NCBI GenBank assembly: GCA_019637975.1 | Contig: JAHBUR010000003.1 | Coordinates: 124,001-188,000, forward strand | Direction: 5' to 3' | Source of the DNA: Bacteroidota bacterium | Lineage (GTDB): Bacteria; Bacteroidota; Ignavibacteria; UBA10030; UBA6906 | DNA: 64,000 bases | Part shown: one piece after another, positions 35,786-62,166 of the stretch | Position numbering within the stretch: the first letter of the stretch is position 1 | How the letters are laid out: the number at the start of each line of letters is the position of its first letter | Position numbers and translations under genes: made by a program | The notes under the pieces: model-generated | Databases searched by the model: none | The model's input: the letters and a program-made list of their open reading frames with translations, nothing else | What the model was told of the DNA's origin: nothing

Positions 35786-36154
35786 ATGTATGAATCGTTT
35801 CGTGACATGCCTGTTTGGCGGGAGGCGATGGAGATTGCTGCTGAGGTCTTTCGCCTTACTGATGGTCTCCCGAAGAAGGAAGATTACGGCGTTACGAGCC
35901 AAATCCGTCGATCTGCTTTGAGCATTTCCGGCAATATTGCTGAAGGCTTTGGGCGGCACCACTCAAAAGATAAAATGAACTTCTACTATATAGCACGTGG
36001 GTCGGCAACGGAAACACAAAGCCACCTTGAGTATTGCAGGAGAGTCGGGTATATCCCCGAAACGTCGGTTGCCACTCTCGATGTTCGGTTGTCGCAGTTG
36101 ATTCATGATATCAACAAGATCATTCAATCACTCAATTTCTCAGCCTCAACCTAA
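35786..36154 (+). CDS. Four-helix-bundle protein of the 23S rRNA intervening-sequence (IVP) family
   Basis: This 122-residue protein has the IVP signature: FRDMPVWREAMEIAAEVFRL (residues 5-24), GVTSQIRRSALSISGNIAEG (about 36-55), and RGSATETQSHLEYCRRVGYI (about 72-91). The fold is a pentameric basic four-helix bundle found inside 23S rRNA insertions of Leptospira and others, in diversity-generating retroelements (Avd), and free-standing in many FCB genomes. No rRNA, reverse transcriptase or template repeat is present here. It breaks the line of polysaccharide genes, and its stop codon lies in the first CCTAAA repeat. It is probably not part of the sugar pathway; nucleic-acid binding is likely. 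Confidence 0.88.
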   Translation: MYESFRDMPVWREAMEIAAEVFRLTDGLPKKEDYGVTSQIRRSALSISGNIAEGFGRHHSKDKMNFYYIARGSATETQSHLEYCRRVGYIPETSVATLDVRLSQLIHDINKIIQSLNFSAST

Positions 36155-36187
36155 ACCTAAACCTAAACCTAAACCTAAACCTAAACC
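36151..36187 (+). repeat. Tandem CCTAAA hexamer array, six copies
   Basis: CTAAAC repeats without error six times from 36151 to 36186, directly after CTCAACC (36145-36151). The array overlaps the stop codon of the IVP-type gene and ends 7 bases before the TTG start of the next gene. It resembles telomere-type repeats in sequence but is short and internal. Confidence 0.85.
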
Positions 36188-36193
36188 TCTTCC

Positions 36194-54995: not shown

Positions 54996-55335
54996 GAAAG
55001 AACACCGCGAAGGCGCGAAGACACGAAGTAGTTGCAGATTGTTGGTAGACGCAGCAGTTGTTGTATGTCGCCCCTTCAGGGCTTTGGGCTCGCATTGGAT
55101 GTTGAGTGTCGGGGCTTTGCCCCGACCTATAATATTTGACGCCTTCAGCGTCATTCCCCGACTGGTGAAAGAACACCGCGAAGACGCGAAGACACGAAGC
55201 GGTTGCAGATTGTTGGTAGGGCAGCAGTTGTTGTATGTCGCCCCTTCAGGCTTCGGCTCGCATTGGATGATGAGTGTCGGGGCTTTGCCCCGACCTATAA
55301 TATTTGACGCCTTCAGCGTCATTACACCGACTGGT
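54996..55335 (+). repeat. Tandem pair of about 170-bp repeats with internal palindromes
   Basis: Copy A (54996-55166) and copy B (55167-55335) follow head-to-tail, each starting GAAAGAACACCGCGAAG and ending CGACTGGT. Inside each are CCCCTTCAGG, the palindrome CGGGGCTTTGCCCCG, and GACGCCTTCAGCGTC. A diverged third copy lies at 55766-55989. No gene is present in them. Confidence 0.9.
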
Positions 55336-55571
55336 GAAAGAAAACCGAACACATCGTTGGTAGGAGCGGGCGGACAGGCCTCTCACTGGCACACAGGGCC
55401 CGCACACAGAGTGGAATATTGGTTGAACGCAGCAAACAGAATCCGCAGATTAGACACTCTCCTCTGTGGGCTGGTTGTGTGGAGGAGAGAGGGGAGACGG
55501 AGGCTCGTCCGCCGAAGCGAAGCGTAGGCGGAGGTGTGTTATTTGAGTGGACCGATACCGTCGCGGCGCTC
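55336..55571 (+). repeat. Mosaic repeat zone, partial copies
   Basis: This piece contains GGCGGACAGGCCTCTC, then a segment (about 55385-55440) with ACAGAGTGGAATATTGGTTG which recurs near 62100-62160. No gene is seen. Confidence 0.6.
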
Positions 55572-59242: not shown

Positions 59243-61015
59243 ATGAGCATTGTGCTGGTTGTACAGAGTTTTCCGAAGCTGTCGGAGACGTTTATTTTCA
59301 GGAAGTTTGCCGGTTTGCTGAGGAAAGGGTGGGATGTTCATGTTGTATGCAATGAGTCGGATGTCGCGGAATGGTTACACTTTGTGGAGGGAGTTCACCG
59401 CGGAGACGCGGAGAACGTGGAGGGAAAACCCTCTGCATCTCAGCGGTCAGAATCACGTAGGTCCCGTGTACATACAGGATGGCCTCACACACCTCACTGG
59501 CTTGCCGGTATGTTGATTCCCTTCGCGATGATCCACTGTCTCGCAAAGAATCCTGCCGGAACAATCCGTTATCTCCGTCTCGGATGGAAGCAGTCGGGCA
59601 TCGGCGTTCTTAAGAAACTCTACACGGATCGTCCGATTATTTGTCTGAACCCCGATGTCGTGCACTTCGAGTTCGGCGCGTTGGCTGTCGGGCGCATGCA
59701 TCTCAAGGAGTTGCTGCAGTGCCGGATTGTGGTGAGCTTCAGGGGGTACGATTTGAATTTTACAGGACTTGCCGCAGGGCGAAACTCCAGTTTCGCTTCC
59801 ACAGGTTTGACAGGACCGATTCAGGAGAATCGGGTTACGGCTGCCGGGCCGATTCTGGAGAATCGGGTTACGGCTGTAGGGCCGATTCAGGAGAATCGGG
59901 CTACGGCTGTAGGGTCGATGCAGGAGAATCGGGTTACGGTTGCCGGACCGATTCAGGAGAATCGGGGTACGGCTGCCGGACCGATTCTGGAGAATCGGGG
60001 TACGGCTGCTGGGCCGATTCTGGAGAATCGTGCCACGGCTGCTGGGCCGATTCTGGAGAATCGTGCTACGACTGCCGGACCGATTCTGGAGAATCGGGTT
60101 ACGGCTGCTGGGCCGATTCAGGAGAATCGGGTTACGGCTGTAGGGCCGATTCTGGAGAATCGGGTTACGGGCGATGGTGCTAAATATTATCACGACGTGT
60201 GGGATAAGGCGGATGTCATTCATCTGCTCGGAAACGACCTGTGGCGGCGGGCGCAGGAGCGAGGGTGCCCGCCGGCAAAACGCCACGTTCTGATTCCTCC
60301 GGCAATTGATCCCGAGATGTTCAATCCGGGTGATCGAAGTCATCAGGGTGTTGCAGGTACCACCGAACGACCTGTCCGGATTCTGAGTGTCGGACGTCTT
60401 GAGTGGAAGAAGGGATACGAGTATGCGCTGCGTGCCGTCCGGCAATTGGTTGACAGGGGCGTTTCTGTAGAGTACCACATAGTCGGCAGCGGGGCATATT
60501 TAGAAGCCCTGACTTTTGCCCGCTACGAAATGGGACTTGAGCAAGTTGTGCATTTCGACGGTGCCCTGTCACCTGATATCGTGCGCGACAAAATGAATTG
60601 GGCTGACCTGTTGCTTCACGCCGCAGTGTCTGAAGGGTTCTGTAACGCAGTGATGGAAGCACAAGCGATGAAGTTGCCTGTGGTGTGTTCGGACGCGGGT
60701 GGGTTACCGGAAAACGTTGTGGACGGGGTAACGGGGTTTGTTGTTGTTAGACGTAACCCGGATGCGCTTGCAGAAAAGATCGAAATCCTCGCCCGCGATG
60801 CGGGGTTGCGGCAACGGATGGGGGAGGCAGGGCGTGAGCGTGTTCGACGATTTTTCCGGATTGAGAATCAGATAGCAGCGTTTGAAGAGATGTACCGCCA
60901 AGTAGAGCGACTTGCCGGAGTCGCTCAATTCAGCAACCCGGCCGCCTCAGGCCAGACAGAGGAGTATGTTATTCCCGGGCTGTCCCGCCAACCAAGTACA
61001 AACGAGGCGCAGTGA
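59243..61015 (+). CDS. GT4-family glycosyltransferase carrying eleven in-frame 33-bp tandem repeats
   Basis: This 590-residue GT-B enzyme is much longer than its roughly 400-residue relatives. The N-terminal half begins SIVLVVQSFPKLSETFIFRK; the C-terminal half has VGRLEWKKGYEYALRAV and AAVSEGFCNAVMEAQAMKLP with the E-x7-E motif. Between VVSFRGYDLNFTGLA and YYHDVWDKADVIHLLG, residues 191-311 are eleven copies of an 11-residue unit (GPI-Q/L-ENR-V/A/G-TA-A/V). A second odd segment (about 50-75, GVHRGDAENVEG) is encoded by DNA resembling the intergenic repeat at 54996. Removal of both would give a normal-size enzyme. Whether this protein folds and works is unknown. Confidence 0.88.
   Translation: MSIVLVVQSFPKLSETFIFRKFAGLLRKGWDVHVVCNESDVAEWLHFVEGVHRGDAENVEGKPSASQRSESRRSRVHTGWPHTPHWLAGMLIPFAMIHCLAKNPAGTIRYLRLGWKQSGIGVLKKLYTDRPIICLNPDVVHFEFGALAVGRMHLKELLQCRIVVSFRGYDLNFTGLAAGRNSSFASTGLTGPIQENRVTAAGPILENRVTAVGPIQENRATAVGSMQENRVTVAGPIQENRGTAAGPILENRGTAAGPILENRATAAGPILENRATTAGPILENRVTAAGPIQENRVTAVGPILENRVTGDGAKYYHDVWDKADVIHLLGNDLWRRAQERGCPPAKRHVLIPPAIDPEMFNPGDRSHQGVAGTTERPVRILSVGRLEWKKGYEYALRAVRQLVDRGVSVEYHIVGSGAYLEALTFARYEMGLEQVVHFDGALSPDIVRDKMNWADLLLHAAVSEGFCNAVMEAQAMKLPVVCSDAGGLPENVVDGVTGFVVVRRNPDALAEKIEILARDAGLRQRMGEAGRERVRRFFRIENQIAAFEEMYRQVERLAGVAQFSNPAASGQTEEYVIPGLSRQPSTNEAQ
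59813..60175 (+). repeat. Eleven-copy 33-bp tandem repeat inside a glycosyltransferase gene
   Basis: The unit is 33 bases and contains an interrupted palindrome, GATTC-(A/T)GGA-GAATC (one copy deviates to GATGC). Copies start at 59813 and every 33 bases to 60143. Most differences are between CAG/CTG (Gln/Leu) and GTT/GCT/GGG (Val/Ala/Gly). Because 33 is divisible by three, gain or loss of units keeps the frame. The other frames are also open across the array. Confidence 0.97.
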
Positions 61016-61035: not shown

Positions 61036-61240
61036 AGTGAAATTCGCGGGACCACACCATGTCCCGACTGCGTCGGGGCACCTCCGCCAGAGGCGGACAG
61101 GCCTCTCCCCAGCGCTGATGCTTCCGCACAGAGGGGAATAATTGATTGAACGCAGCAAACAGAATCCTCGGATAACACATTCCCCTCTGTGGGTGAGCAA
61201 GTGTGAAAGCGAGAGGGGAAGCAGAAGGCTTGCCCGCCGT
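61036..61240 (+). repeat. Interspersed repeat, copy 2 (left of DUF559 gene)
   Basis: It begins AGTGAAATTCGCGGGACCAC and contains the palindrome CTCCGCCAGAGGCGGA, CACAGAGGGGAATAATTGAT and ACACATTCCCCTCTGTGGGT. It is about 90 percent like copy 3 at 61752 by eye, with copy 1 (55572) more diverged. It follows the glycosyltransferase stop by 20 bases. Confidence 0.9.
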
Positions 61241-61250
61241 GGTGTACCTT

Positions 61251-61360
61251 CTTGACCGCCGATTCCTTTGGCGGTGTGGCGGGGGTGTGTATCAAGAGCC
61301 ATTCGTTACACCCCGTGTTGTACCCCTTCTTGACCGCCGATTCTTTTGGCGGTTTGGCGG
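61251..61360 (+). repeat. Two direct copies of a CCGCC...GGCGG hairpin sequence
   Basis: CTTGACCGCCGATTCCTTTG with GCGGTGTGGCGG (61251-61282) and its near-copy at 61329-61360 are 78 bases apart. Each can fold into CCGCC/GGCGG. The second ends 24 bases before the DUF559 start codon. Confidence 0.8.
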
Positions 61361-61384
61361 TGTGTGTGTTGAAAGTGCATCACG

Positions 61385-61756
61385 ATGAAACGACAGCGAC
61401 TTCGTTACAACCCAAAACTGACGGAGAAGGCGCGAGCGCTTCGCAATGAAAGCACTCTCGCTGAAGTGCTGCTGTGGAATCAGTTGAAACGCAAACAGAT
61501 GCGCGGCTATGATTTTCATCGTCAAAAACCGATTGACCGGTACATAGTGGATTTTTTCTGCCAGAAATTGATGCTTGCGATAGAAATCGACGGAACAAGT
61601 CATATGTTCCGGGGGGAGCGTGATGCGAAGAGGCAAGAACGGCTGGAATCGTTGGGTGTGCATTTTCTGAGGGTTGATGATCTGGATGTGAAATTCCGGA
61701 TGGATGATGTGTTGAAGATGATTGAACAATGGATTGATGGACACACAAAGAAGTGA
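61385..61756 (+). CDS. DUF559 endonuclease-like protein (Vsr/PD-(D/E)xK fold)
   Basis: The 123-residue protein shows the whole DUF559 pattern: LRNESTLAEVLLWNQLKRKQ (residues about 19-38), GYDFHRQKPIDRYIVDFFC (about 41-59), LAIEIDGTSHMF (about 64-75) and RDAKRQERLESLGVHFLRV. The D-(x)n-E-x-D/H core (YIVDF, IEIDG) matches the very-short-patch-repair endonuclease fold, so DNA nicking or cutting is likely but unproven for this family. Its stop codon is formed by the first bases of repeat copy 3 (AGTGAAATT), and copy 2 lies upstream. The gene has no link to polysaccharide synthesis. Confidence 0.9.
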   Translation: MKRQRLRYNPKLTEKARALRNESTLAEVLLWNQLKRKQMRGYDFHRQKPIDRYIVDFFCQKLMLAIEIDGTSHMFRGERDAKRQERLESLGVHFLRVDDLDVKFRMDDVLKMIEQWIDGHTKK

Positions 61757-61970
61757 AATTCGCGGGACCACACCCCGTCATCCCGACTACCGTCGGGGCA
61801 CCTCCGCCAGAGGCGGACATGCCTCTCTCCAGCGCTGATGCTCCCGCACAGAGGGGAATAATTGATTGAACGCAGCAAACAGAAATCCGCGGATAACACA
61901 TTCCCCTCTGTGTGTGAGCAAGTGTGAAAGCGAGAGGGGAAGCAGAAGGGGTGTGTATCAAGAGCCGCAT
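61752..61970 (+). repeat. Interspersed repeat, copy 3 (right of DUF559 gene)
   Basis: It begins AGTGAAATTCGCGGGACCAC and runs parallel to copy 2 for about 200 bases, including CTCCGCCAGAGGCGGACATG, AGAGGGGAATAATTGATTGA and AAGTGTGAAAGCGAGAGGGG. The distance between starts of copies 2 and 3 is 716 bases, enclosing the DUF559 gene as in a composite element. Confidence 0.9.
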
Positions 61971-61982
61971 TGCACACCCCAT

Positions 61983-62084
61983 CCGACTGCGCAAAAAGAG
62001 TGCTTTGTCGGACACTCCGACTGCACAAAAAGAGTGCTTCGTCGGACACTCCGACTACACAAAAAGAATGCTTCGTCGGATACC
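61983..62084 (+). repeat. Three-copy 34-bp tandem repeat
   Basis: CCGACTGCGCAAAAAGAGTG with CTTTGTCGGACACT (34 bases) repeats at 61983, 62017 and 62051, the last slightly diverged. Each unit is bounded by CCGAC and GTCGG, which can pair. A CTCCGCCAAAGGCGGAC palindrome and a piece shared with 55385 follow directly (to about 62160). Confidence 0.9.
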
Positions 62085-62166
62085 TCCGCCAAAGGCGGAC
62101 AGGCCTCTCTGGCACACGGGCCCGCGCACAGAGGGGAATATTGGTCAAGCGCAGGAAACAATTCAT

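Follow-up and report, generated by a model that had tools for sequence, protein, structure and literature searches.

An eleven-copy palindromic repeat array within a glycosyltransferase gene, likely derived from a GTAG-tagged REP-type hairpin

GTAG-tagged REPs are hairpins with stems of 5–13 bp and loops of 2–20 nucleotides that are linked to Y1 transposases (RAYTs) and include intragenic copies (BMC Genomics 2013, 14:522; PMC3733652). The same survey documents intragenic GTAG REPs that are inserted in frame. Dimeric or grouped inserts specify 20 to 30 residues, and in the authors' view insertions of this kind may occupy flexible linkers or loops. Head-to-tail REP dimers are rare in the survey, arrays of GTAG repeats adjoin exopolysaccharide genes in Thauera, and the list of phyla with GTAG repeats omits Bacteroidetes and Chlorobi. 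The classic case of palindromic mobile DNA inserted in frame into conserved genes and translated is that of the Rickettsia palindromic elements (RPEs), whose length is given as 105–146 bp in the relevant passages of PMC2229807; according to PMC3733652, two of them, RPE-4 and RPE-6, are short and carry a CGTC tag. PARCEL repeats (PMC2996958) are tandem, palindromic, in-frame coding repeats that specify a 25-residue amphipathic domain, are associated with membrane proteins, and have spread horizontally.

The window (the whole 64-kb stretch of DNA that was analyzed) contains a glycosyltransferase gene that includes an in-frame tandem array of palindromic units. We consider it probable that this array arose from a REP-type hairpin that entered the gene without breaking the frame and then multiplied in tandem, and that it persists as a neutral passenger rather than as a device. 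The features of the gene are listed below.

59243–61015, plus strand: host GT4 glycosyltransferase gene, 590 amino acids (open reading frame; PF00534)
59394–59453, plus strand: another dispersed, imperfectly palindromic repeat (TTCACCGCGGAGACGCGGAG...CTCTGCATCTCAGCGGTCA) within the host gene, common to the sister species; end approximate (sequence comparison)
59779–59796, no strand assigned: a further perfect palindrome, GCGAAACTCCAGTTTCGC, a short distance upstream of the array, without counterpart in the sister orthologue (sequence comparison)
59813–60175, plus strand: array of 33-bp units, (GPI[LQ]ENRVTAA)n (Tandem Repeats Finder, frame phasing)
59813–60175, minus strand: array units read as GTAG-REP-type hairpins (stem-loop and tag pattern)

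The host protein matches Pfam PF00534 (glycosyl transferase group 1) at residues 374–533 with an E value of 2.2e-34, which identifies its C-terminal domain as GT4. The nearest NCBIfam profiles are EpsE, TIGR03088, and WcaL, every one of which scores below its cut-off; EpsE and WcaL are exopolysaccharide enzymes, and the WcaL match starts at profile position 168, directly after the array. The array follows VVSFRGYDLNF and precedes KYYHDVWDKADVIHLL (KYYHDVWDKAD). This position is inside the N-terminal GT-B domain and not, as the first-pass annotation had placed it, between the conserved parts of the two Rossmann halves, given that the C-terminal domain match begins at residue 374. The surrounding genes, which encode a Wzc-like kinase, a Wzt-type ABC protein, and sugar-nucleotide enzymes, form a surface-polysaccharide locus. 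Two proteins encoded in the window bear type IX secretion sorting tails, which point to a Bacteroidota-like (FCB) host.

When phased by the reading frame, positions 59813–60175 comprise exactly 11 units of 33 bp arranged head to tail, which encode 121 residues with the 11-residue consensus GPI(L/Q)ENRVTAA repeated 11 times without indels. Tandem Repeats Finder, run on the window, reported 59816–60170 with a period of 33, 10.8 copies, 89% matches, and 0% indels. Thus, the eleven-copy array and the 121 residues that it adds to the GT4 protein stand as first annotated. Two accompanying claims required correction. GATTC-N4-GAATC, said to be present in every unit, is complete in 10 of the 11, with unit 4 (from 59912) reading GATGC. 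Likewise, the array had been described as open in all frames; three of the six are open (the coding frame, one other on the plus strand, and one on the minus strand), and the remaining three contain 3, 4, and 8 stops. The minus strand of the array reads as GTAN-NN-CGATTC-TCCW-GAATCG hairpins, in which the tag is GTAG in 2 of the 11 units, GTAA in 6, GTAC in 2, and GTGG in 1. The core hairpin pattern is matched 16 times across the window, compared with 0.04 times in shuffled sequences, and 21 GANTC sites, which would be candidate targets of GANTC methylation, fall within the array. RNA transcribed from the array folds far better than shuffles (z −9.7). This value is a consequence of the palindromes rather than a demonstration of function, and a functional role for the RNA hairpins was not retained.

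As DNA, the array was found once in its own genome and in none of the 20 other genomes of the family (21 searched), and a scan of 394 other genomes in the phylum found no pairs of palindromes with the spacing of the array. The first-pass annotation saw no counterpart of the unit among the intergenic repeats of the window. This holds for the 64 kb, but counterparts do exist in the genome, since nine dispersed, GTAG-tagged hairpins resemble the unit in core and tag. In this genome the dispersed copies have the sequence GTAGCGCGATTCTCCTGAATCGC, and in that of a sister species GTAGGGCGATTCTCCTGAATCGC; GTAGCGCGATTCTCCTGAATCGC and similar copies form a short stem-loop with GTAG at one end, as GTAG REPs do. 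A search for GTAGNNCGATTC-N3-5-GAATCG gave 11 matches in this genome (2 in the array and 9 elsewhere), 5 in the sister, and 1 in a third species of the genus; the reversed pattern, used as a control, gave 0 in the genomes of all three species. The nine copies outside the array are spread over three contigs (C2, C5, and C28) and thus constitute a multicopy family of modest number, the dispersed hairpins of this genome amounting to about ten copies. The dispersed copy closest to the array, located in a cluster of intergenic repeats, shares 89% identity with it over 36 bp (E 5.7e-5).

Of the five Y1 transposase (PF01797) genes in the genome, the one on C28, a candidate RAYT, is bracketed by GTAGAACGATTC hairpins that lie among other repeats. 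At 959–2011 of L109 (G000:C28), this gene is embedded in a closely packed mixture of unlike hairpin repeats, and GATTC hairpins with the GTAG tag lie to either side of it. We regard the anatomy of the array unit as REP-type because its stem-loop core and tag recur in dispersed elements, two of which bracket a Y1-type transposase gene. Descent of the unit from the REP family is likely but not proven, and a Y1 transposase may have been involved in the origin of the array.

An independent minisatellite, in which slippage multiplied a local stretch of 33 bp whose core resembles a REP by chance or through convergence on a stable hairpin, is an unlikely source of the array. Palindromes favor slippage, and the exact GTAG tag is present in just 2 of the 11 units. 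Flanks outside the hairpin core resemble those of the dispersed copies weakly, with 1 of 40 comparisons standing out (P 0.001), so the core may have arisen independently. These points are countered by the recurrence of the core together with the degenerate GTAG tag in the genome and genus, against 0 in the control, and by the BLAST match to a dispersed copy.

Hairpins with the same core occur farther afield. An Ardenticatenia MAG contains 56 CGATTC-N4-GAATCG palindromes compared with 1 in the control, several of them as GTAGCGCGATTCTCCAGAATCGCGCTAC, and three Ardenticatenia matches to the unit are dispersed hairpins of this core. They represent an abundant family of another phylum, and no cross-phylum descent is claimed. 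A match in Pirellulaceae was rejected as a relative of the unit; it lies in a MoxR-like ATPase gene (assigned by eye) and is probably due to chance. A text search of the literature for the core sequence returned a single match, an unrelated CRISPR paper.

The first-pass annotation had suggested searching related genomes for an orthologue without the repeat. The same-genus sister species (G001) has an intact orthologue in the same gene order, in which the flanks of the insertion site are 78% and 70% identical and the array is absent. At the site of the array, the sister gene carries about 30 other codons, among them a dispersed repeat of another type, TTCACCGCGGAGACGC (G001:C24:207578). Both species have a first copy of this repeat closer to the N-terminus (at 59394 in the window and at G001:C24:207116). 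Because the sister carries a different dispersed repeat there, the array site appears to be an insertion-tolerant loop in the N-terminal domain. The array-free orthologue and the different repeats within the gene therefore indicate that dispersed repeats have targeted the host gene more than once. No close orthologue of the host gene was found in the third species of the genus. We infer that the array was gained in this lineage, not lost in the sister. Strong purifying selection acts on the flanking enzyme, with dN/dS ratios of 0.13 in the N-terminal part and, at saturated dS, about 0.06 in the C-terminal part; the enzyme presumably remains active despite the array.

Set against their consensus, the array units differ by 13 distinct changes, of which 5 are synonymous and 8 nonsynonymous. 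Without selection, the expected synonymous share is 31–34% (P 0.36–0.45), in a test whose power is low with 13 changes. Judged from the sequence of the units, their variation appears to fit neutrality and the peptide seems free of constraint; the tract looks tolerated, not useful. Near-identical units are found at lags of 3, 4, 7, and 8, which suggests past block duplications within the array, that is, turnover of copy number.

Such turnover, the uniform length of all 11 units (exactly 33 bp, a period divisible by 3), and the location of the gene in a surface-polysaccharide locus could be taken to indicate a variable-length device, the other proposal of the first-pass annotation, in which in-frame slippage tunes glycosyltransferase activity or acceptor choice and thereby varies the surface polysaccharide. 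We find this decidedly unlikely. The sister orthologue lacks the array, variation in the tract looks neutral, and an in-frame change in length would be expected to act in a graded, not an on/off, manner. It is tempting to speculate that a REP hairpin captured in the glycosyltransferase became a copy-number-variable, in-frame length tuner, and hence that selfish DNA turned into a contingency locus; this combination is very doubtful.

In an AlphaFold model of the host protein, residues 191–311 have the lowest confidence (pLDDT about 20–22) and no secondary structure, within a whole model that is itself poor (mean 43). The model was built from three window sequences and is weak because viral contigs yielded no relatives to deepen the alignment. 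The array tract is probably disordered, as far as this model predicts. It is highly improbable that the tract is a repeat-protein domain that folds or binds in its own right, with the palindrome a by-product of the codons: the peptide is regular, but it is unstructured in the model, its synonymous and nonsynonymous changes are as chance predicts, and the DNA hairpin is also found outside genes.

Insertion and tandem expansion of a REP-type hairpin thus remains our preferred explanation. A GTAG-tagged REP-type hairpin, or a fragment of one, would have entered the loop in the N-terminal domain of the GT4 gene in the lineage of this species, and the single insert would have grown to eleven 33-bp units, head to tail, through slippage or unequal recombination. 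Survivors would be inserts that kept the frame and lacked in-frame stops; the period may be stop-free and divisible by 3 because translation has to continue into the catalytic domain downstream. The resulting tract would be a neutral passenger. The earlier proposal of a gene-invading, tolerated repeat gains support from the dispersed GTAG hairpins, the array-free orthologue, and the neutral-looking variation among units.

Other repeats lie in the same window. A DUF559-like ORF (61385–61756, by eye) is situated between direct repeats of about 190 bp that are 93% identical (61036–61228 and 61752–61949). In the sister species, the two neighboring glycosyltransferase ORFs lie a few bases apart; because these ORFs nearly adjoin, the entire 61036–61949 segment has the look of an inserted cassette. 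Three tandem 34-bp palindromic units, TCCGACTGCACAAAAAGAGTGCTTCGTCGGACAC (61982–62088), occupy the spacer that follows the host gene; they form a tandem hairpin array that is probably non-coding and has a period not divisible by 3. At 36144–36188, 7.5 copies of CCTAAA end about 6 bases before the called start (36194) of a sugar-nucleotide epimerase ORF, where a variable translation start is possible. A 168-bp unit present in 2.1 copies of 93% identity (54996–55347) is located just downstream of another GT4 gene.

In the host gene, a short palindrome has been multiplied inside a conserved gene until it accounts for a fifth of the protein, and an array-free orthologue is available for comparison. 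Two sister species carry different dispersed repeats in the same loop of one gene, and elements of this type can become a source of new repeat tracts in proteins. The array would matter more if its copy number did vary and change the surface glycan.

The array shares features with several known systems. Variable-length surface repeat proteins (e.g., Periscope), as presented in the relevant part of PMC8201768, also contain an in-frame tandem repeat able to vary length; here, the host is an enzyme, the repeat is absent from the orthologue, and no length variants were seen in an analysis that covered one genome per species. PARCEL repeats are likewise tandem, palindromic, in-frame, and protein-coding, but the unit described here specifies 11 residues and lies inside an enzyme. 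It is set apart from PARCEL by description, unit length, and context, and membership in that family was rejected on the latter two grounds. The likeness to Rickettsia palindromic elements is one of kind, palindromic DNA lying in frame in a conserved gene and being translated, and the passages of PMC2229807 on these elements describe no 11-unit array. Intragenic hairpins have precedents; what is unusual here is the tandem repetition of one hairpin in eleven copies. The locus differs from described GTAG REPs in having eleven head-to-tail units in one gene, a tag that is degenerate in most units, and few dispersed copies. It resembles them in its short hairpin (stem 7–8 bp, loop 2–4 nt) with a GTAG or related tag at one end, its clustered dispersed copies, the Y1 transposase genes in the genome, and the presence of in-frame intragenic copies.
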